NCBI GenBank assembly: GCA_902526005.1
Contig: CABZIW010000001.1
Span: 158,988 to 222,987 of the forward strand
Length of the DNA stretch: 64,000 nucleotides
Origin: an uncultured Pelagibacteraceae bacterium
GTDB lineage: Bacteria; Pseudomonadota; Alphaproteobacteria; Pelagibacterales; AG-422-B15
Direction of reading: 5' to 3'
Position numbers and translations under genes: made by a program. Each line of letters opens with the position of its first letter. Positions within the stretch are counted from its first letter, which is position 1. Shown piece after piece: positions 46,088 through 62,826 of the stretch. The notes beneath the pieces are model-generated. The model saw nothing but the letters and a program-made list of their open reading frames with translations. It was not told the DNA's origin and did not search any database.

Positions 46088-46510
46088 GTGGATGTAAAAA
46101 CAAAAATTATCACACAATTTGTTAGAGACTTATCATTTGAAAATCCTAATGGACCAGGATCATTTCAACCAGGTAGCGATCGACCCAATATTAATGCAAA
46201 TGTTGATGTCAAAGCACAAAATAGAAAAGATACCAATATTTATGAAGTCGAGCTGAACGTGAGTGTAAATGCTTCACGCGCGGATCAGAGTTTGTACATT
46301 GTAGACCTAAAGTACGTTGGAATATTTGAAATTGAAAATCTTACTGACGATGTTAAGGAAGCTTACTTACTAGTAGAATGTCCGCGACAACTTTTTCCAT
46401 TTGCAAGAAGAATTATTTACGACTTACATGCTGATGGAGCTCTACCACCACTTATGTTAGACCCTGTGAACTTTGCTGAACTTTATAAAAAGAAAACAAG
46501 TAATAATTAA
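46088..46510 (+). CDS. secB: Protein-export chaperone SecB
   Basis: FVRDLSFENPNGP, CPRQLFPFARRII. Confidence 0.93.
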   Translation: MDVKTKIITQFVRDLSFENPNGPGSFQPGSDRPNINANVDVKAQNRKDTNIYEVELNVSVNASRADQSLYIVDLKYVGIFEIENLTDDVKEAYLLVECPRQLFPFARRIIYDLHADGALPPLMLDPVNFAELYKKKTSNN

Positions 46511-47319
46511 TAGCGTAACAATTTAGGTTCACCGTCCACAATTTCAAAAACTGGCTCAACATTAGGTATGTCATCTTTATCTTTGTTATTCATGTTGAGC
46601 AAAAGCTCGGATGTATCTGTGTAACCACAAATCATTTCAAGATTTTTTATTGTTGGCATAATCATAGGAAAATTTCCAGATTTACTCTCTTGAAGGGCTT
46701 CTTCAGGATTAATCCATTTGCTTTCAACTCCCTCCACTCCATCGTGTACGGCTACCTGATCGGTTGTACGAGCTATAAAAAATCTAGTACTGTATCTTCT
46801 TTTCTCTATTTTTGGAGTAACCCAGTGTGAAATATAAGCAAGTTCATTTGTTGCTAATTCTAGATTTAAAGTATCTATCATTTCATAAAAAATATTTTCA
46901 CCTTTTAGAATTTTGCTTTTGTATTGATCTATTATTTTTAGATCATCCTTGTTGAGAACGGTATTTATTAAATTTACTCCCTTTTTATTTGCAAGAAGAA
47001 TTCCACTTTCTTCAAAGCACTCCCTGATACATGCAGCCCAATATGAAAGGCCATTTTTTTTTAATCCAAGTCTTTCAGATGCCAAGGCATCATCAAGATG
47101 AGGGCTGTATTTTGAATAATTATTTGAGATATCTTCATTATCAATTTTACCCCCTGGAAATACCCATACACCACCAAAATTTGTTTTCATCGATCTTTTA
47201 ATCATAAACACTTCTACCCGCTGGTTGGTGTCTCGTATAAGCAGTACTGATGCGGCTGGCGTAGGCACTTTTTGATAATTGCCATTATCGCTAGGAGTAT
47301 GATTAATTTTGTTATTCAC
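46507..47319 (-). CDS. NUDIX hydrolase
   Basis: GGVWVFPGGKIDNED...ACIRECFEESGILL. Confidence 0.85.
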   Translation of the reverse strand: MNNKINHTPSDNGNYQKVPTPAASVLLIRDTNQRVEVFMIKRSMKTNFGGVWVFPGGKIDNEDISNNYSKYSPHLDDALASERLGLKKNGLSYWAACIRECFEESGILLANKKGVNLINTVLNKDDLKIIDQYKSKILKGENIFYEMIDTLNLELATNELAYISHWVTPKIEKRRYSTRFFIARTTDQVAVHDGVEGVESKWINPEEALQESKSGNFPMIMPTIKNLEMICGYTDTSELLLNMNNKDKDDIPNVEPVFEIVDGEPKLLRY

Positions 47320-48022
47320 TTGTTTGATTATTTTTAGACTGATTAATTTTTTTCCAAATAGAGTGCTCGCCTAATGTTTGAATAAATTCTTCATGCAGTT
47401 TTTTTTCTTGATCAGAAATTCGGGGTGCTAAATTTCTATTCTTGATCTTTTCAGTGTCAAAAGATGAGGTAGAATTCGCTGTTACTGACTTGGTGCTTAG
47501 ATCCAGGCTTAGCTCACGAGCATCCATTAGTTCTATGTACACACGGGCTAAGAGCTCAGTATCAATTGTAGCTGAATGTTTTTCTCTCTGCTTGTTATCA
47601 ATTGCAAATCTTTTACAAAGCGCATCAAGTGAAACACTCTGGCCAGGAAATTTTTCTCTAGCAATCGAGACTGTGTCAATTTTATCATTTTTAAGAGACT
47701 CTTTACCACAGGTATTCAGCTCGTAATTTAAGAAACCAACATCGAAGTCCACATTGTGAGCAATAATTGGATCCGTGCCTAAAAATTCTAAGAACTCTGA
47801 TACAATGTTCTCAAACAAAGGTTTGTCTTTTAAAAATTCGTAGCTCAATCCATGCACCTTAAATGATGAGTCAGGCACATCTCGCCGGGGGTTAATATAT
47901 TGTTGGTATGTTTTACCAGTGGGAAGATAATCAATTATCTCTATCGCAGCAATTTCAATGACTCTGTGACCCTCTGAAGGCCTTAGTCCGGTGGTTTCTG
48001 TATCAAGTACGACTTGTCTCAT
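47312..48022 (-). CDS. dnaQ: DNA polymerase III epsilon subunit
   Basis: VLDTETTGL, AHNVDFDVGFLN, HSATIDTELLA exonuclease motifs. Confidence 0.96.
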   Translation of the reverse strand: MRQVVLDTETTGLRPSEGHRVIEIAAIEIIDYLPTGKTYQQYINPRRDVPDSSFKVHGLSYEFLKDKPLFENIVSEFLEFLGTDPIIAHNVDFDVGFLNYELNTCGKESLKNDKIDTVSIAREKFPGQSVSLDALCKRFAIDNKQREKHSATIDTELLARVYIELMDARELSLDLSTKSVTANSTSSFDTEKIKNRNLAPRISDQEKKLHEEFIQTLGEHSIWKKINQSKNNQTSE

Positions 48023-48642
48023 TGATTAAAGAAGGTATTCCACGCCTTTGGATTAATCAATTTAATTTTTGCAGCAACTTCTTTTACCTCTGATTTGGTA
48101 TCTTCAATATTATTATCGGTTGAAATGATGTAATCCGCTTTTTTTAATTTGTCTCTGTCTGGCATTTGTTGATCTTTAATAGCATTAAAAATCTCTAATG
48201 GTACTTTTCTCTCCTGCACCACTCTGGATTGTTGTGTTGCTTCAGACGCTGTCACCACAACAGAAACATCCACATATTTTTCTCCTCCAGTTTCAAAAAG
48301 TAATGGGATGTCTAAAACACAACCCATCTTTCCTTCATCGATTAATTTTTTTATGTAAATTATTTGGTACTTCCTTGTTACAGGATGAACAATTTGTTCT
48401 AGGTCTCTAAATTTATCAGGGTCTTTATTTAGAATATCTCTTAATGCTAATCGATTCACTACACCATCTTTCGTTGAGCCTGGAAACTGTCTCTCTACTT
48501 TTTCTATGACCTCTTCATCGTTTTCGTATATATAATGAACTGTATCGTCAGCATTATAAATGCCGTAACCGTGATCTTTAAACATTTGCGCAACAGTTGA
48601 TTTTCCCATTCCAATAGATCCTGTTATACCAACCAACAACAT
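48019..48642 (-). CDS. coaE: Dephospho-CoA kinase
   Basis: VGITGSIGMGKSTVAQMF, DIPLLFETG. Confidence 0.97.
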   Translation of the reverse strand: MLLVGITGSIGMGKSTVAQMFKDHGYGIYNADDTVHYIYENDEEVIEKVERQFPGSTKDGVVNRLALRDILNKDPDKFRDLEQIVHPVTRKYQIIYIKKLIDEGKMGCVLDIPLLFETGGEKYVDVSVVVTASEATQQSRVVQERKVPLEIFNAIKDQQMPDRDKLKKADYIISTDNNIEDTKSEVKEVAAKIKLINPKAWNTFFNQ

Positions 48643-48645
48643 TAG

Positions 48646-49458
48646 TTAACCCCCCAATACACTCATTAATTCCTCATCAATTTCAGGCATTATATCGTGC
48701 CACACATTAAATGACTGGGCAGCTTGATGGATTAGCATCTCCAATCCATTTTGAACCGTACAGCCGCTTTCCTCGGCGTGTTTTAGAAAAGTTGTCTTGC
48801 TTGGGTTATATATAAGATCGTAAACATGTGCAGATGAATTTAGGCTATCAAAGTCTATTAAATTGTTTTCTTCGCCTTCTTGTTGTCCCAAGCTTGTGGT
48901 GTTAACAACTAAATGTGAGGATTTAATAAACTCACTGATTGTTCTTTCTGTTAAAACTGTTGCCTCAACACCAAGATCACTGCAAAGCAACTCTGCGTTT
49001 TCTCTTGTTCTATTATAAATGCCAATCTCACACTTCATATGTGTTAACGCATACACAACCGCCCTTGCTGATCCGCCGGCTCCAAGCACCAAACACAACT
49101 TGTTATTTAGGCCTTTATTTGCAATTGATTTTTCAAAACCAATCGGGTCGGTGTTATCCCCATAAATACCATCTTTATTTACTATGAGCGTGTTGACTGC
49201 TTTGAGGGTTCTTGCAACATCAGATGTGTTATCACAATATTTATATGCGTCCTCCTTGAGGGGAACTGTAACGTTTAAGCCGTAGTAACCCTCTTCTATT
49301 AAACGATCAACATCCCTAATAAAGTTTTCTTTTTTTACATTTATTTTTTGGTAAGCGCCCACATCAATTTTCTTGCTTTCAATCCAGTGATTATGGATTT
49401 TAGGTGAAAGACTATGATCTATTGGGTCTCCAATAACTGCTGTTTTTTTACGTGCCAT
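48646..49458 (-). CDS. aroE: Shikimate dehydrogenase
   Basis: VIGDPIDHSLSPKIHN, LNVTVPLKEDAYKYCD, LGAGGSARAVVYAL. Confidence 0.96.
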   Translation of the reverse strand: MARKKTAVIGDPIDHSLSPKIHNHWIESKKIDVGAYQKINVKKENFIRDVDRLIEEGYYGLNVTVPLKEDAYKYCDNTSDVARTLKAVNTLIVNKDGIYGDNTDPIGFEKSIANKGLNNKLCLVLGAGGSARAVVYALTHMKCEIGIYNRTRENAELLCSDLGVEATVLTERTISEFIKSSHLVVNTTSLGQQEGEENNLIDFDSLNSSAHVYDLIYNPSKTTFLKHAEESGCTVQNGLEMLIHQAAQSFNVWHDIMPEIDEELMSVLGG

Positions 49459-50053
49459 TGTTTTCAAATAGAAGATTGTTGTCCCAAAGGAACTGGGTTA
49501 ATTGAATTAATGATATGCCTTGTATTGAAAAAAGGTCACTCCCAACATTTTCAAAAAGTTTAATTCCTTCTTCCTCAATTGCATAGACACCTACAAGACC
49601 AAGAATATTGTCATCGACATTATTTAAATATTCTTTTATCAGGTCCTCACTCAGCTTTCGCATATGCATTTTAGATCTTTCTACATGCTTCCAAATAATA
49701 TTGTTGTCTTGAGCGACTGTTGTGGCAGTTATGAGTGTGTGGATACATCCGCTCATTTTCAACAATTGGTCTTTTGCTTCGTTTCTATCCCTAGCCTTAT
49801 TAACTAATTCACCTTTCAGATCTAGCCCTTGGTCTGATCCAATAACAAAGGCATTTTTATTAGACATTGAGGGTTTCAAGGCTTTCATCTCTGCAAGTTT
49901 AACTACGACCTCTTCGGGTGTATTTTTACTCATCGACAACTTTACCTCGTCCTCATCTACTCCATGAGAAACAGGCTCAAAGTTAATACCCGCATTGCGT
50001 AACAATTTAATTCTTGTTTCACTTTTAGAAGCCAAAATTATGTCCCTGTTCAT
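49448..50053 (-). CDS. maf: Maf-family nucleotide pyrophosphatase
   Basis: ILASKSETRIKLLRNAGINFE, VIGSDQGL. Confidence 0.93.
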   Translation of the reverse strand: MNRDIILASKSETRIKLLRNAGINFEPVSHGVDEDEVKLSMSKNTPEEVVVKLAEMKALKPSMSNKNAFVIGSDQGLDLKGELVNKARDRNEAKDQLLKMSGCIHTLITATTVAQDNNIIWKHVERSKMHMRKLSEDLIKEYLNNVDDNILGLVGVYAIEEEGIKLFENVGSDLFSIQGISLIQLTQFLWDNNLLFENNGT

Positions 50054-50327
50054 AAACCTGTATAACCCCCCCTAAGACCTGTGAGTACTTTTACTATCTT
50101 TTCCCATTATTAATTTTTAACTTATTTTTCTATCTTTATTGAGAATTTTTGCAAACTTTGTTCACTTGTTAGAGATATTGCAGTTTTCTTCCACGTCGGT
50201 GTATAAGGTTAAAAAGCATATAATTCAAAGCGATTGTTCTGTGTATCGAATTGTGGGCAAAAAGCGACTTTTTATATATACACAATTCCACAGGAACATA
50301 AACAACTACAATTATATATATAATATA
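50054..50327. other. oriC: Candidate chromosomal replication origin (oriC)
   Basis: Largest non-coding gap in window; maf|hemE strand switch; degenerate DnaA boxes at 50057-50065, 50158-50166, 50240-50248, 50252-50260, 50276-50284; inverted repeat GAATTGTG(50248-50255)/CACAATTC(50281-50288); TA-rich DUE-like tract; parAB/parS about 10 kb away. Confidence 0.65.
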
Positions 50328-51314
50328 ATGAGTATATTTATAGATACACTTAAAGGTCAAAAAACAAAACCATCACCAGTTTGGTTAATGAGACAAGCAG
50401 GAAGACATTTGCCTGAATACATAAGTATCAGAAAACAATTTGCAAACCTTATGGATATGTTTCTTGATCCTTTGACAATATCTGAAGTTTCTCTGCAGCC
50501 TGTAAACAGATATGGTATGGATGCCTGTATTGTGTTTTCAGACATTTTAATAACCCCTTTTGCTGCGGGCTCAAGCGTTAGTTTTGTTGATGGGCAAGGC
50601 CCTGTAATAAAGTTCAATGAGAACATGAGCTATAATCTTGAAAAAACCTTACCTCTTGCAAAAGGAATAAAAAAAATTAAAGAAAATACAAGTGTCCCCT
50701 TAATAGGATTTGCTGGCGGAGCATGGACGACACTGTTTTATTGTTTATATGATAAGAATGAACGTCAAAATCTAAAATTCGAAGACGTTGTTAAAAAGAC
50801 TTCACAAATAGACAATTTAATCGAGCAAATGACACTTGCGATTATTAAACACGCAGAAATGCAAATTGATTGTGGAATTGATGCCTTTCAAATATTTGAA
50901 TCAGCGGCAGGACACTTAAATAATGAACAGTTTAATAAATGGTGTGTTCAACCTACAAAAAAAATTATTGAGAGTATAAAAAAAATAAAAGACATTCCTA
51001 TTATTGGCTTTCCTAGAAACACTAATCTTGCATGTTATAAAAAATATTCAAATATAGATAAGCTTGACTGTATTACCTTAGACTATAATTTTCCTTTAGA
51101 TAAAATTAATGAACTAAACGATAAAATTGTTTTTCAAGGAAACTTGGATCCTAAACACCTATTAAAAGACTCTCAAAATCTTAGTCAGAAAATTGAAGAA
51201 ATATTGTTTGCTTTTAGAGAAAGACCACATATTTTTAATTTAGGACATGGAGTTTTACCCGAGACATCAATTGAGAAGGTTGAGCAAATGCTCTTACAGA
51301 TAAGGTCAACATGA
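50328..51314 (+). CDS. hemE: Uroporphyrinogen decarboxylase; start corrected from 50139 to MSIFIDTLKGQ
   Basis: PVWLMRQAGRHLPEY, FSDILITPFAAG, GNLDPKHLL, NLGHGVLPET. Confidence 0.97.
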   Translation: MSIFIDTLKGQKTKPSPVWLMRQAGRHLPEYISIRKQFANLMDMFLDPLTISEVSLQPVNRYGMDACIVFSDILITPFAAGSSVSFVDGQGPVIKFNENMSYNLEKTLPLAKGIKKIKENTSVPLIGFAGGAWTTLFYCLYDKNERQNLKFEDVVKKTSQIDNLIEQMTLAIIKHAEMQIDCGIDAFQIFESAAGHLNNEQFNKWCVQPTKKIIESIKKIKDIPIIGFPRNTNLACYKKYSNIDKLDCITLDYNFPLDKINELNDKIVFQGNLDPKHLLKDSQNLSQKIEEILFAFRERPHIFNLGHGVLPETSIEKVEQMLLQIRST

Positions 51315-52330
51315 AAACAGCGGTCGTTTTATTTAACTTGGGAGGACCAGATAAACAAGAAAGCGTAAAACCTTTTTTATTTAATCTATTTAATGATCCC
51401 AACATATTTAGACTTCCAAATCCCTTCAGGTATTTATTGGCAAGATTTATATCTTCCCGTCGTACCAAAGAGGCCACTGAAATTTATGCCGAAATAGGCG
51501 GTAAATCTCCTATTCTTGAAATTACAAACTCCCAAGCGGAGGCTCTTCAGAAAGAATTAAAAAACAAAGGCATCGAGAACAAGGTATTTGTTTGCATGAG
51601 ATATTGGCATCCAATGACAGCTGAGGTAGTTTCAAAAGTCAAAGACTATAAACCAGATAAAATATTTTTACTGCCCCTGTATCCACAGTACTCCACTACA
51701 ACAACAAAATCTTCTCTGGATGCATGGTTCAACGAAGCACAAAACCAGGAATTAAATACAAAAACAAAATATACCTGTTGTTATCCATATGACGCAAAAC
51801 TAATTAAAGCCCATCAGAAACTGATCCAAAATAAAATAAACCACGTCAAAGATAAAAAAGTAAGAGTTCTATTTTCCGCCCACAGTTTACCTGTATCAAT
51901 AATTAAAAAAGGTGATCCATATCAGTGGCAAGTGGAGCAAACAGTAAAGGCGGTCATACAAGGCATTCATGGTTATGAAGATCATGTTTTGGCTTATCAA
52001 AGTAAAGTTACCCCAGTTAAATGGCTTGAACCAACAACACCAAGTGAAATTGAAAATGCAATTAGCGAAGATAGGGCGCTTGTTATTGTCCCAATTGCGT
52101 TTGTTTCAGATCACTCTGAAACACTTGTTGAATTAGATATCGAGTACCAAGAACTAGCAAGTGAACTGGGTTGTAAGCATTATTATAGATCTGAGTCATT
52201 AAATATTGATCAAACATTTATAGAAAGCTTATCTGAAATAGTTAGTGAGTCTGAGAAAATTGAGAGTGGTAATATCAGGCAAAAAATATGTCCAGCAACG
52301 TTTAAACAATGTGATCAAGAATTAAGATGA
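51311..52330 (+). CDS. hemH: Ferrochelatase
   Basis: VLFNLGGPDKQESVKPFLFNLFNDPNI, SAHSLPVSII, AFVSDHSETLVELDIEY. Confidence 0.96.
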   Translation: MKTAVVLFNLGGPDKQESVKPFLFNLFNDPNIFRLPNPFRYLLARFISSRRTKEATEIYAEIGGKSPILEITNSQAEALQKELKNKGIENKVFVCMRYWHPMTAEVVSKVKDYKPDKIFLLPLYPQYSTTTTKSSLDAWFNEAQNQELNTKTKYTCCYPYDAKLIKAHQKLIQNKINHVKDKKVRVLFSAHSLPVSIIKKGDPYQWQVEQTVKAVIQGIHGYEDHVLAYQSKVTPVKWLEPTTPSEIENAISEDRALVIVPIAFVSDHSETLVELDIEYQELASELGCKHYYRSESLNIDQTFIESLSEIVSESEKIESGNIRQKICPATFKQCDQELR

Positions 52331-52770
52331 GTTCAATTTTTTTATATAATTTATTTCTTAGTTTACACATCATCAGTGTTATAGCTTGGATGGCCGGCTT
52401 ATTATATTTGCCAAGATTATTTGTTTATCATTGGAGTAAAGAGGTAGGGTCTGATTCTTCAGAGACTTTTAAATTAATGGAATTACGTTTACTTAAAATT
52501 ATTATGAATCCAGCAATGATATTTTCATGGTTGTTTGGTTTAGCGTTGATATCAAATTTAGGTTTTGATGCGCTGTTTCAATTATGGCTTCAATTAAAAA
52601 TCATTTTTGTGATTCTCATGTCTGGAGTTCATGGGTATTTCTCAAAATTAACAAGAGAGTTTCAAGAGGATAAAAGGCCAAAATCAGAGCGCTTTTTTAG
52701 AATTATCAATGAATTTCCAACGGTTTTGATGATAATTGTCGTATTTCTGGTTATTTTTAAACCAATATAA
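52327..52770 (+). CDS. hemJ: Protoporphyrinogen oxidase HemJ
   Basis: HIISVIAWMAGLLYLPRLFVYH; C-terminal RIINEFPT; adjacent to hemH. Confidence 0.92.
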   Translation: MSSIFLYNLFLSLHIISVIAWMAGLLYLPRLFVYHWSKEVGSDSSETFKLMELRLLKIIMNPAMIFSWLFGLALISNLGFDALFQLWLQLKIIFVILMSGVHGYFSKLTREFQEDKRPKSERFFRIINEFPTVLMIIVVFLVIFKPI

Positions 52771-52847
52771 AACTTGCTATATTTAACGATTACGGTTAGA
52801 AAGCAGCTTCCGAACTATTTTCCACATTATCATCATCATCAATAAAA

Positions 52848-54113
52848 ATGGCTAAAAACTTAAAATTAAGAGACCTTAAGAAAAAAACTCCACAAGAACT
52901 TCTTGTTTATGCGGAGGAACTTGGCGTTGAAAATGCCAGTTCAATGCGTACACAAGATATGCTGTTTGAAATACTGAAAACTCTTGCGAGTGACAGTAAA
53001 GATATTGACGGTGAAGGTGTTTTAGAAGTTTTACAGGATGGGTTTGGTTTTTTAAGATCAATGGAGGCCAACTATCTTCCAGGTCCTGATGATATTTATG
53101 TAAGCCCAAGTCAAATTAAAAGATTTGGATTAAGATCAGGAGACACTGTTGAAGGTCCAATTAGAGCACCAAAGGACGGTGAACGTTATTTTGCATTATT
53201 AAAAATTGATACAATCAACTACGAAGCAACCGAAAAAAGTAAAAACAAGATTAACTTTGATAACCTGACACCTCTTTACCCTGATGAACAAATCAGATTA
53301 GAAACCGAAAAACCAGCAAGCGATCAAAGTTCAAGAGTAATTGATTTGGTTGCACCAATTGGTAAGGGTCAAAGGGCACTTATTGTTTCACCACCAAGAA
53401 CAGGTAAAACGGTTTTACTGCAAAATATTGCACATTCAATTACTGATAATCATCCAGAATGTTACTTGATGGTTTTATTAATTGATGAGAGACCAGAGGA
53501 AGTTACTGATATGCAACGTTCTGTAAAAGGTGAGGTTGTGAGTTCAACTTTTGATGAGCCCGCATCACGTCACGTACAGGTTGCTGAAATGGTTATCAAT
53601 AAAGCAAAAAGATTAGTAGAGCATAAAAAAGATGTCGTTATTCTTTTAGACTCCATTACAAGATTGGGTCGTGCTTACAACACGGTTGTTCCAAGTTCAG
53701 GAAAAGTATTAACAGGTGGTGTTGATGCAAACGCACTACAAAGACCAAAGAGATTTTTTGGTGCAGCCAGAAATATTGAAGATGGCGGATCGCTGACCAT
53801 TATTTCAACTGCTCTGATTGATACAGGAAGTAGAATGGATGAGGTAATTTTTGAGGAATTTAAAGGAACTGGTAACTCAGAAATTATATTGGACAGAAAA
53901 GTTGCTGATAAAAGAATATATCCTGCAATTGATATTACGAAGTCTGGCACTCGAAAAGAAGAGATACTCCTTGATAAAGACGAGCTTCAGAAAATGTATG
54001 TCCTCAGACGCATTCTCAACCCAATGGGAACAATGGACTCTATCGAGTTTTTATTAGGTAAACTTAAAGAAACGAAGGATAACGCAGATTTCTTTCAATC
54101 AATGAATAAATAA
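52848..54113 (+). CDS. rho: Transcription termination factor Rho
   Basis: [45 protein letters not shown]. Confidence 0.98.
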
Positions 54114-54114
54114 T

Positions 54115-54154
54115 ATTAAAATTTAGTATTAAAAATTTAGTATTAAAAATTTTT
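54115..54154 (+). repeat. AT-rich near-tandem repeat, about 3 copies of TATTAAAA(A)TTTAG, 13-14 nt period
   Basis: tattaaaatttag|tattaaaaatttag|tattaaaaattttt between rho and the barrel gene. Confidence 0.7.
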
Positions 54155-54180
54155 CAATCCATAATTATTCTGCATAACGA

Positions 54181-55074
54181 ATGAGACGCGTCCTATTCAT
54201 TATCATACTCTTTTGTTCATCCATTGCTTTTGGAAGCGAGGTTACAAATACACTTTTGAAAAAAGTGGCTAAAACGGCTGAGGAAAAAGCTGAATTAGCA
54301 GTGAATGATATTTTTAAAAATGTTGATGTTGACCTCTCAGGCTTTTACAAAGGTAAGCCGTCATTCGGTATAAGTACCATTCTTCCTTTATATGAAAAAA
54401 ATAATATCAATAATTTCTTTCAAGGTCATTTATCGACGCAAGCGGATATAGAAATATTGAACCTTGGTTTTGTTCAAAGAAGAAGTCTATTAGAAAATAA
54501 ACTGATTGTTGGTTATAATTTTTTTTATGATCTTGATTTAGATAATTCTCATGAAAGATTTGGTATTGGAGCAGATATGCTAACCAGTCTTGGAGATGTA
54601 CATTTAAATTATTATGACGCAATAACTGACTATGTAGTTGTGAATGGCTTAAAGGAGTATACGCTAGATGGATATGATGCACAGATTGCATTTCCCCTTC
54701 CGTATTTACCCTACTCAAAAATTTATGCTGAAGTATTTTCATGGAATGGCATTAACAGTTCAAGAGATCTTGAAGGCGAAACATTTAGTATAAAAAATAA
54801 ACTTCCTTTCGGAATGAGTTTAGAATTTGGAAAAACGAGTTTTGATCAATTGTCTCGTGACGAGGAGTTTGTGATTTTAAATATTAATCTTTTTGAATTT
54901 AAAAAAACTAAACAACCATTATCAAGTGAATTGAGAAAAATGTACTCAACCGTACCATATGAATTGTACAATTTTACTGATGTGAGTGACCGTAAGTATG
55001 AAAAGGTCAGAAGAGAAAATAAAATAAAAAAACAAACAAACCGAACTGGAACAGTTAGAATTGTAGGATATTAA
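54181..55074 (+). CDS. Inverse-autotransporter-type (intimin/invasin) outer-membrane beta-barrel protein lacking a passenger
   Basis: Signal peptide; FGISTILPLYEKNNINNFFQGHLSTQ, VGYNFFYDLDLDNSHERFGIGADML, YTLDGYDAQIAFPLPYLPYSKIYAEVF; C-terminal VRRENKI resembles the linker following inverse-autotransporter barrels. Confidence 0.75.
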   Translation: MRRVLFIIILFCSSIAFGSEVTNTLLKKVAKTAEEKAELAVNDIFKNVDVDLSGFYKGKPSFGISTILPLYEKNNINNFFQGHLSTQADIEILNLGFVQRRSLLENKLIVGYNFFYDLDLDNSHERFGIGADMLTSLGDVHLNYYDAITDYVVVNGLKEYTLDGYDAQIAFPLPYLPYSKIYAEVFSWNGINSSRDLEGETFSIKNKLPFGMSLEFGKTSFDQLSRDEEFVILNINLFEFKKTKQPLSSELRKMYSTVPYELYNFTDVSDRKYEKVRRENKIKKQTNRTGTVRIVGY

Positions 55075-55075
55075 A

Positions 55076-56011
55076 ATGCAGAAAAAATTATTTTTCATAA
55101 TATCCTTGTTAATTTTTTCAGGAATGTTTAACGGCAAACTCTTCGCTATAAATGGATATGAAAACTGCCCTATGGTAGATGGAAAAATTGATGTATCAGA
55201 ACTTGTAAATATCGTTCCTTTTTCTGGCAATTTAAGGACCTGCGATGCGCCGGTCACAAATTACATTTTAAATTTCAACAAACTTGCTGTGTGTACTTCC
55301 GATCCTAATGATTATATTTTAGGCAATTCAACAGCTGACCCGTGCTATTATCTCTGGAATACAGCTGAGGGGAATGAAGCCATTTCTGTTGGCATAGACA
55401 AACTAGGTAATGAATTTAGCTTTCCTGCCACTCTTCCACCATCAGGAACATATACTTCGGGTTATGCTGAAATTTCAGCCACAATTCCAATTTATGTGGA
55501 ACTTGAATTTGACGAAGAATTGATGTTTGGTGGCAATAGCGCAGGAACAGGCTGGAGTATACCTTCTCCATCAAAATTTATTGGTGGAGGTGATCGCAAC
55601 ATGTCTATGCAGGATGGTATTAATGGAAATTTGTTTGGTTTTACAGAGGCATTTTCAGAATCACAGCCGTCATTTAATGATTATAGTTTTACATACAACT
55701 CTTTATCAACAACTGAATTTCTTAATACACGTATTAGTTACACTGCCCTATCTCATAACGGTAATTATCGTTCAGTTTTCTTACTTAATGACAGTGGTAG
55801 ACTTGCAAGCACATATAGTGATGTCTCGTCATTAATTATTAAAGATGAATTTTCCACACCTATAACGATTACTGACCGAACAAGCACAGTTACCTATAAA
55901 TATTCAACTGATTATGCGGCAAGAATTACAGTTGTGCCTTCAGGATCGGGCGGATGGTTTGTTACATCGATTTTATTTGGTGATACGCAATTTAGGATGG
56001 AATTTGAATAA
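55076..56011 (+). CDS. Uncharacterised exported protein (311 aa, signal peptide, four N-terminal-half Cys, beta-rich)
   Basis: Signal peptide MQKKLFFIISLLIFSGMFNGKLFA; no family recognised; begins 1 nt after barrel stop codon. Confidence 0.8.
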   Translation: MQKKLFFIISLLIFSGMFNGKLFAINGYENCPMVDGKIDVSELVNIVPFSGNLRTCDAPVTNYILNFNKLAVCTSDPNDYILGNSTADPCYYLWNTAEGNEAISVGIDKLGNEFSFPATLPPSGTYTSGYAEISATIPIYVELEFDEELMFGGNSAGTGWSIPSPSKFIGGGDRNMSMQDGINGNLFGFTEAFSESQPSFNDYSFTYNSLSTTEFLNTRISYTALSHNGNYRSVFLLNDSGRLASTYSDVSSLIIKDEFSTPITITDRTSTVTYKYSTDYAARITVVPSGSGGWFVTSILFGDTQFRMEFE

Positions 56012-60554: not shown

Positions 60555-61178
60555 ATGATTGATTCGCCTGATGCTCTAAAGGAGCTCTTGCCAAATGTTT
60601 CACGTGAAACAATTGAAAAATTGGCTGAATTCAGGGAAATGATTTTGGCAGAAGACCAAAACTTAATTTCAAAGAATGATAAAAACTTTATCTGGATAAG
60701 ACATTTCTATGATTCTTTAAGATTAGTGCAGTTTATAAATAGCAATGGAAATGATATCATTGATATTGGTAGCGGTGCTGGCCTTCCAGGTATACCAGTT
60801 TCGATAATATTTGGCTCGAAAAATAAGGTTTTTTTGTGTGAAAATAGACCTAAAAGAGTATCGTTTCTTAATAAATGTATTGTTAACTTAGATCTTAAAA
60901 ATACTGAAGTGATTCCCATTAAAGCAGAAAAAATTGAAAATAAAAAATTTGATATCATTTTAGCAAGAGCTGTTAGTCAATTAAATCATTTATTATCAAT
61001 AAGTTATAATATATGCAAAAAAAACACTACATTGCTTCTGCATAAAGGTGTACATATAGATGAAGAGATCGTGCAAGCTACTAAATATTGGGATTTTACT
61101 CATGTATTGTATGAAAATGAAAGAAAAAAGGGTTCTTTTATTTTGGAATTAAAAAATATAATAAAATCAATAACTTAA
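60555..61178 (+). CDS. rsmG: 16S rRNA (guanine527-N7)-methyltransferase RsmG
   Basis: VSRETIEKLAEF, IDIGSGAGLPGIPVSI. Confidence 0.95.
   Translation: MIDSPDALKELLPNVSRETIEKLAEFREMILAEDQNLISKNDKNFIWIRHFYDSLRLVQFINSNGNDIIDIGSGAGLPGIPVSIIFGSKNKVFLCENRPKRVSFLNKCIVNLDLKNTEVIPIKAEKIENKKFDIILARAVSQLNHLLSISYNICKKNTTLLLHKGVHIDEEIVQATKYWDFTHVLYENERKKGSFILELKNIIKSIT
60596..60611. promoter_or_regulatory. parS: parS centromere site (TGTTTCACGTGAAACA)
   Basis: Exact match to the canonical 16-bp palindromic ParB site, inside rsmG about 0.6 kb upstream of parAB. Confidence 0.95.
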
Positions 61179-61966
61179 TGAAAAATAAAATAATAGCTAT
61201 CTCAAATCAGAAAGGTGGAGTGGGAAAAACTACAACAGCAATAAACTTATCCACAGCCTTAGCTGCTATTGGGGAAAAAGTTTTAATTATTGATCTCGAC
61301 CCTCAAGGAAATGCTAGTACGGGTTTAGGTATAGATTATCAAAACAGAAATAATTCAATTTATGAAGTTCTTGCATCTCAATGCAATTTATTTGATGCAA
61401 TTCAAAATACTGTAATAGAAAATTTAAAAATCATTCCATCTACTGTGGATCTATCAGGTATTGAACCTGAACTTGCTGAAGTAAATGATAGAGCTTTTAC
61501 ACTTAAAAAAATTTTAACAGACCAAAACTCATTAAATGATTTTAGTTTTGTTTTTATTGATTGCCCACCAGCTTTAAGCCTTCTCACTGTCATGGCAATG
61601 ACCGCAGCTGACTCCGTTATAGTCCCACTTCAATGTGAATTTTTTGCTTTAGAAGGTCTTAGTCAATTAATAAAAACAATTGATAGGGTTAAACAAAATC
61701 TAAATCAAAATCTAACAATCGATGGAATAGTTTTAACAATGTTTGATGGAAGAAATAAACTTTCTTCACAAGTTGCTGACGATGTTAAAAAACATTTAAG
61801 TCAACAAGTATATGAAACCATCATACCCCGTAACGTAAGAGTTTCAGAAGCTCCTTCATTTGGTATGCCTGCATTAATTTATGATCAAAAGGCTGCTGGT
61901 AGCCAGGCATATTTAAGATTAGCGGATGAGATCATAAGACAAAACAAAGAACAGGAGGCAGCATAA
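61178..61966 (+). CDS. parA: Chromosome partitioning ATPase ParA
   Basis: ISNQKGGVGKTTTAINLSTALA, DLDPQGNASTGLG. Confidence 0.97.
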   Translation: MKNKIIAISNQKGGVGKTTTAINLSTALAAIGEKVLIIDLDPQGNASTGLGIDYQNRNNSIYEVLASQCNLFDAIQNTVIENLKIIPSTVDLSGIEPELAEVNDRAFTLKKILTDQNSLNDFSFVFIDCPPALSLLTVMAMTAADSVIVPLQCEFFALEGLSQLIKTIDRVKQNLNQNLTIDGIVLTMFDGRNKLSSQVADDVKKHLSQQVYETIIPRNVRVSEAPSFGMPALIYDQKAAGSQAYLRLADEIIRQNKEQEAA

Positions 61967-62826
61967 TGAGTTCATCAATTTCAAAAAAAGGTTTAGGTCG
62001 CGGACTTTCATCGCTTATGGGTGATACTAAAGATGACTCAATTCAAAATGAAACTTCAAATCAAGAAACAAAAATTTCAATTTCAAATTTAAAACCAAGC
62101 CCGTCACAGCCTCGAAGATTATTTGATAAAAATAGTATTAATGAATTAGCTGAATCCATAAAATCAAAAGGGCTTGTTCAACCAATATTAGTTAGACCCT
62201 CACAAACAGAGTCTGGAACATATGAAATTATTGCAGGTGAGAGAAGATGGCGAGCAGCCCAAATTGCACAACTTCATGAAGTTCCTGCAGTTATTAGAAA
62301 ACTAGATGATCAAGAAGCATTGGAAATAGCAATTATAGAAAATGTACAACGTTCTGATCTATCTCCAATCGAAGAAGCTGCGGGATATAAAAGATTAATT
62401 GAAAACTACGGACATACCCAAGAAGCACTTGCAGAAATTGTTGGTAAAAGCAGAAGTCATATTGCAAACATAATTAGATTACTTGGTTTACCTCAGTCTA
62501 TTCAAGATATGATTTCAGAGGGAAAGATTTCATCAGGTCATGCCCGAGCTATCATGAATAGTGCTTTTCCAGAACAACTAGCAGAAAAAATTGTAAGCGA
62601 AAATTTAAGCGTAAGAGCCGCAGAAGACCTCGCTAAACAGAGAAAGCCAGGCGTCAAGAAAGTTAAATTAAAAGATCCTGATACTATTGATTTAGAAAAT
62701 AACTTAACAGCAAGGCTCGGATTAAGTGTATCGATTGATCACAAAGGAAAAAAGGGCGGTTCAATAAAAATAGAATATAAATCTCTTGATCAGTTAGAAT
62801 TAGTGACTGCTAAATTAAAAAATTAA
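61966..62826 (+). CDS. parB: Chromosome partitioning protein ParB
   Basis: KKGLGRGLSSLMGD, IAGERRWRAAQ, ENVQRSDLSPIEEA, HTH GKSRSHIANIIRLLGLP. Confidence 0.97.
   Translation: MSSSISKKGLGRGLSSLMGDTKDDSIQNETSNQETKISISNLKPSPSQPRRLFDKNSINELAESIKSKGLVQPILVRPSQTESGTYEIIAGERRWRAAQIAQLHEVPAVIRKLDDQEALEIAIIENVQRSDLSPIEEAAGYKRLIENYGHTQEALAEIVGKSRSHIANIIRLLGLPQSIQDMISEGKISSGHARAIMNSAFPEQLAEKIVSENLSVRAAEDLAKQRKPGVKKVKLKDPDTIDLENNLTARLGLSVSIDHKGKKGGSIKIEYKSLDQLELVTAKLKN

Follow-up and report, generated by a model that had tools for sequence, protein, structure and literature searches.

The window, a 64,000-nt stretch of DNA, covers positions 158988-222987 of a 376-kb contig (C1) from the 1.23-Mb genome of an ocean bacterium of the SAR11 group. 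The divergently oriented genes maf and hemE are separated by a non-coding intergenic gap of 274 nt, located at 209 kb of the contig. The genes from 46507 to 50053 all run leftward and those from 50328 to 56011 all run rightward, as the original prediction had described. Its description of the gap as the largest non-coding interval also holds, as the window yielded no true gap of greater length. What looks like a 286-nt gap near 39.2 kb (39.1-39.4 kb) is occupied by a gene of 95 aa. The region between rho and apt (54181-56011) contains two ORFs with signal-peptide-like starts and without assigned function. A search for structured RNA in the maf-hemE gap gave no Rfam match at E values up to 1. 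The gap and its surroundings contain the following features:

49448-50053, minus strand: maf, the left neighbour, assigned by ORF position and synteny, with its start at 50053
50054-50327, no strand: candidate oriC intergenic region, 271-275 nt in 30 genus members, with box-like sites and the inversion axis
50198-50206, minus strand: DnaA box GGTGTATAA with 1 mismatch, in a conserved register; aligned with TGTGGGTAA in the divergent clade
50253-50260, minus strand: GTGGGCAA element, a weak box-like site identical in 30 of 30 aligned genus members
50273-50303, plus strand: conserved core TATATATACACANNNNCACARNNACATAAAC, a 31-nt pattern with exactly one copy per genome in 30 of 30 genomes
50276-50284, plus strand: core DnaA box ATATACACA, invariant in 30 of 30 aligned genus members and in the divergent member G019
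50300-50319, plus strand: trinucleotide-periodic stretch at the DnaA-trio position, from the alignment; CTAATACTA in relatives and ACAACTACAATTAT here
50306-50345, no strand: probable DNA unwinding element, the least stable 40-mer of the region, weaker than 99.97% of the 40-mers of the window (nearest-neighbour sum)
50328-51314, plus strand: hemE, the right neighbour, a classic alphaproteobacterial origin boundary gene (PMC1914354), with its ATG at 50328
60596-60611, no strand: perfect parS TGTTTCACGTGAAACA inside rsmG, 0 mismatches; all other sites on the 376-kb contig have at least 2
61178-62826, plus strand: parA-parB, in conserved synteny

Sequence comparisons within the genus showed that the distance between maf and hemE stays at 271-275 nt across the 30 members, while hemE drops to 56% identity. 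The right-hand core of the gap, TTTTTATATATACACA-N4-CACAGG-N-ACATAAAC, is almost invariant in the genus, and the 31-nt core pattern has zero copies in the backward-read control. A probable AT-rich unwinding segment of the kind present in Cori-type origins lies at 50306-50345 (top 0.03% of low stability), so that the DNA bordering hemE is close to the weakest duplex in the window.

The original prediction reported a cluster of DnaA-box-like sites including one 8/9 match. This match is ATATACACA at 50276-50284, and the cluster is above chance at two or fewer mismatches (15 sites vs. 5.3 in shuffles, with 0 of 200 shuffles reaching 15). Two further boxes had been overlooked: GGTGTATAA at 50198-50206, which also has one mismatch, and TGTTCATAA, whose positions 50047-50055 span the start of maf. 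Counting only boxes with at most one mismatch, the gap of this genome has 2 vs. 0.56 in shuffles, which is not significant (P 0.12), and it contains no perfect DnaA box; elsewhere on the contig, several stretches of 300 nt also contain three such boxes. At the same threshold, there are 3-4 sites in the gaps of genus relatives (P 0.00-0.055), four in the divergent clade of the genus, where several members have a perfect TGTGGATAA among them, and 2-7 in the sister-family gaps. The position of the core box is retained in much of the sister family, with TTATTCACA there in several Pelagibacteraceae. The predicted inverted repeat is present, formed by GAATTGTG (50248-50255) and CACAATTC (50281-50288), but its palindromy is lost in the divergent clade, which keeps only the two box-like elements within it. 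CtrA sites (TTAA-N7-TTAA) are not enriched in the gap, where one 1-mismatch site was found vs. 0.76 expected per 300 nt, and no IHF site was found in the gap. Since ctrA is reported missing in Pelagibacter (PMC2877005), CtrA sites are not necessarily expected there.

The gene block hslVU...dnaQ-coaE-aroE-maf-gap-hemE-hemH...rho-mnmEG-rsmG-parAB is kept in most of the sister-family genomes checked. In 10 of the 11 sister-family genomes inspected, maf-aroE-coaE-dnaQ, mostly with hslVU, stands on one side of the block and hemE-hemH-hemJ-rho, mostly followed by mnmEG-rsmG-parAB, on the other. COG1806 sits in these 10 genomes between maf and a gap of ~280-330 nt that reaches hemE; in the exception, G036, hemE was found only as a weak match, near hemH/hemJ. 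COG1806 (PF03618) is present in 23 of 23 sister-family (Pelagibacteraceae) genomes vs. 0 of 36 genomes of the genus, and the divergent genus member G019 has the maf-gap-hemE order without COG1806. The arrangement of the Cori type, with COG1806 across the origin from hemE, is thus not found here. The mapped origin of Caulobacter and that of Rickettsia have the order COG1806-gap-hemE (PMC1914354). The predicted hemE-side origin neighbourhood is borne out, with hemE adjoining the gap and the hemE-hemH...rho synteny kept; one correction is that the partner of hemE in Caulobacter and Rickettsia is COG1806 rather than maf. Judged from gene content, the genus lost the left boundary gene COG1806 and kept the origin, so that maf, next in line, now abuts the origin. 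COG1806 is an ancestral neighbour and not a functional requirement, because Wolbachia-type origins are also without it (PMC1914354). The expectation of parS and parAB near the origin agrees with the perfect parS found together with parAB 10 kb from the gap.

Orthologues of the contig were placed on the closed SAR11 genomes G041 and, more sparsely sampled, G043. Comparison with G041 showed 94 inverted orthologue pairs within 135 kb, 93 of which lie on opposite sides of the gap, with a distance correlation of 0.966 and an axis at a median of +2.2 kb from the gap (IQR +0.2 to +4.7). Around the gap, a core reaching ~11.6 kb to the left and 21.8 kb to the right is collinear, and the gene order outside it is mirrored. 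The comparison with G043, with its sparser sampling, gives the same mirror picture. Setting the axis at dnaA for comparison carries no information, since dnaA is reflected along with its surroundings, and this comparison was left aside. Bacterial chromosomes are known to undergo inversions that are symmetric about the axis from origin to terminus (PMC5850607). A symmetric-inversion axis, which is one mark of a bacterial oriC, thus lies at the maf-hemE gap.

From the left end of the contig, the raw cumulative GC skew declines until ~176 kb; it stays level as far as ~290 kb and climbs beyond. The switch of gene polarity falls in this broad zone too (176-290 kb of the contig). The formal minima of skew and polarity are near 247 kb, and the gap lies at 209 kb. 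The raw skew is only broadly compatible with an origin at the gap, and dnaA at 144 kb fits the switch of skew and polarity worse. Corrected for gene orientation, the GC skew at 4-fold sites has its best break at 210 kb; the right side is C-rich, contrary to the G-rich leading strand usually seen, and the sign differs between G041 and G043. Because the raw minimum is broad, the corrected sign is reversed and the signs of the relatives are inconsistent, skew was not counted as support.

Symmetric inversions centre on the terminus too, and together with the reverse sign of the corrected 4-fold skew this would allow the axis at the gap to be the terminus instead of the origin. However, parS and parAB lie close by, the hemE synteny is shared with the mapped Caulobacter origin, the gap contains DnaA boxes, and the raw skew falls on the left and rises further right. 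The parS, the boxes and the synteny mark the axis as the origin end, and a terminus at this position is scarcely credible. The gap might also be nothing more than a promoter region for the divergent genes maf and hemE, both of which start at it, with the AT-rich stretch abutting hemE. Promoters can be present in the gap as well, but a purely promoter function is highly unlikely in view of a gap length fixed over large divergence, the box enrichment and the mirror axis. The sister family, moreover, keeps the box and the trio position though COG1806 stands on the left.

In many bacteria the origin lies upstream of dnaA, and the original prediction had named dnaA as the place where the origin might be found instead. 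The dnaA gene lies on the same contig (C1:142603-144022), ~15-16 kb left of the window and 66 kb left of the gap. An origin in the dnaA-rpsT gap (C1:144023-144338), ~66 kb to the left, would make the maf-hemE gap merely regulatory. The dnaA-rpsT gap is long (316 nt here, 310-318 nt in the genus) and AT-rich, and its length and sequence are strongly conserved, with a conservation within the genus at least equal to that of the maf-hemE gap. However, it is poor in DnaA boxes, with 0-1 one-mismatch boxes in 26 of 27 genomes, and the gene-polarity contrast is much lower there (64.6k vs. 102.8k). In several sister genomes (Pelagibacteraceae), dnaA lies 60-64 kb to the right of the origin. Since its distance from hemE is similar in the two families (~60-66 kb) while its side is reversed, dnaA is a passenger of symmetric inversions that swapped sides between families. 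The dnaA-rpsT gap is probably a regulatory leader, an origin at dnaA is very improbable, and the origin at the maf-hemE gap stands. Synteny, conservation across families, the proximity of parS/parAB and the mirror-image inversions centred on the gap support the original prediction of a candidate oriC. On these comparative grounds, the maf-hemE gap is very probably the chromosomal oriC, of the hemE-linked alphaproteobacterial type.

The rule of the basal unwinding system describes a DnaA-box, a spacer of up to 16 nt and at least three trios of 3'-NAN-5' (PMC8287927). Most relatives checked conform to the published rule. The closed genome G041 has TTATTCACA, a 10-nt spacer and CTAATACTA, and the divergent clade has ATATACACA, an 18-nt spacer and CTAATACTA, the spacer being ~10 if a weak second box between them counts. 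The sister family has DnaA boxes and a DnaA-trio-like CTAATACTA at the equivalent position. After the core box of the clade studied here, where ATATACACA is followed by ACAACTACAATTAT, no row conforming to the rule was found. Matches to the rule elsewhere in the gap number 7 vs. 4.7 in shuffles; the rule is too permissive and thus unusable as stand-alone evidence. In the encoded DnaA, the motif for box binding, GRDHTTVIHAVKK, appears intact. From its gene 66 kb off, this protein would bind the box cluster, made up of the invariant box at 50276-50284 and of weak sites spread over the gap. The basal unwinding system offers an analogy for the next step: DnaA would spread rightward along a single strand of the trinucleotide-periodic stretch and open the extremely AT-rich DNA that immediately precedes hemE, with this side and order of unwinding presumed. 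A DnaA-guided opening rightward, toward hemE, is likely on this analogy. The helicase would load at the opened segment, forks would depart both ways, and ParB on parS, 10 kb rightward, would segregate the new origins. The trio row of the clade may have drifted from CTAATACTA to ACA/ACT/ACA, with alternate trios without the conserved middle base and with perfect boxes gone; that DnaA opens this origin via an altered single-strand motif is a tentative and rather unlikely suggestion.

SAR11 bacteria are among the ocean's most abundant, and the right origin is needed when growth is estimated from read-depth slopes. The dnaA gene is a misleading origin landmark in the SAR11 group, although the start of one closed genome, G040, which is linearised at dnaA, suggests it. 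An origin placed at dnaA is misplaced, because dnaA is 60-70 kb off in the SAR11 genomes examined, on a side that varies by family. The conserved core offers an easy origin anchor for the AG-422-B15 lineage.

The candidate origin resembles the basal unwinding system of B. subtilis (DnaA-boxes and DnaA-trios) in its core box followed by a trinucleotide-periodic stretch and AT-rich DNA, with CTAATACTA in relatives, whereas in its own clade the core box is not followed by three trios as the strict rule has it. Like the Caulobacter crescentus Cori (COG1806/CC0001-hemE) and the Rickettsia origins, it has hemE on one side, DnaA boxes and an AT-rich segment, and sister-family relatives retain COG1806 on the other side. 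In contrast to these origins, it is without COG1806 and has maf as its neighbour, it is shorter (274 nt vs. ~400), its boxes are more degenerate, and CtrA or IHF sites are not enriched. As in the Wolbachia, Ehrlichia and Anaplasma origins (COG1253-hemE), hemE is kept and the left neighbour is exchanged, but the left neighbour here is maf, which came to adjoin the origin when a gene was lost and not through rearrangement. The origin is thus of the ordinary alphaproteobacterial kind, and what is new here is the lost neighbour gene and, possibly, the drifted trios.
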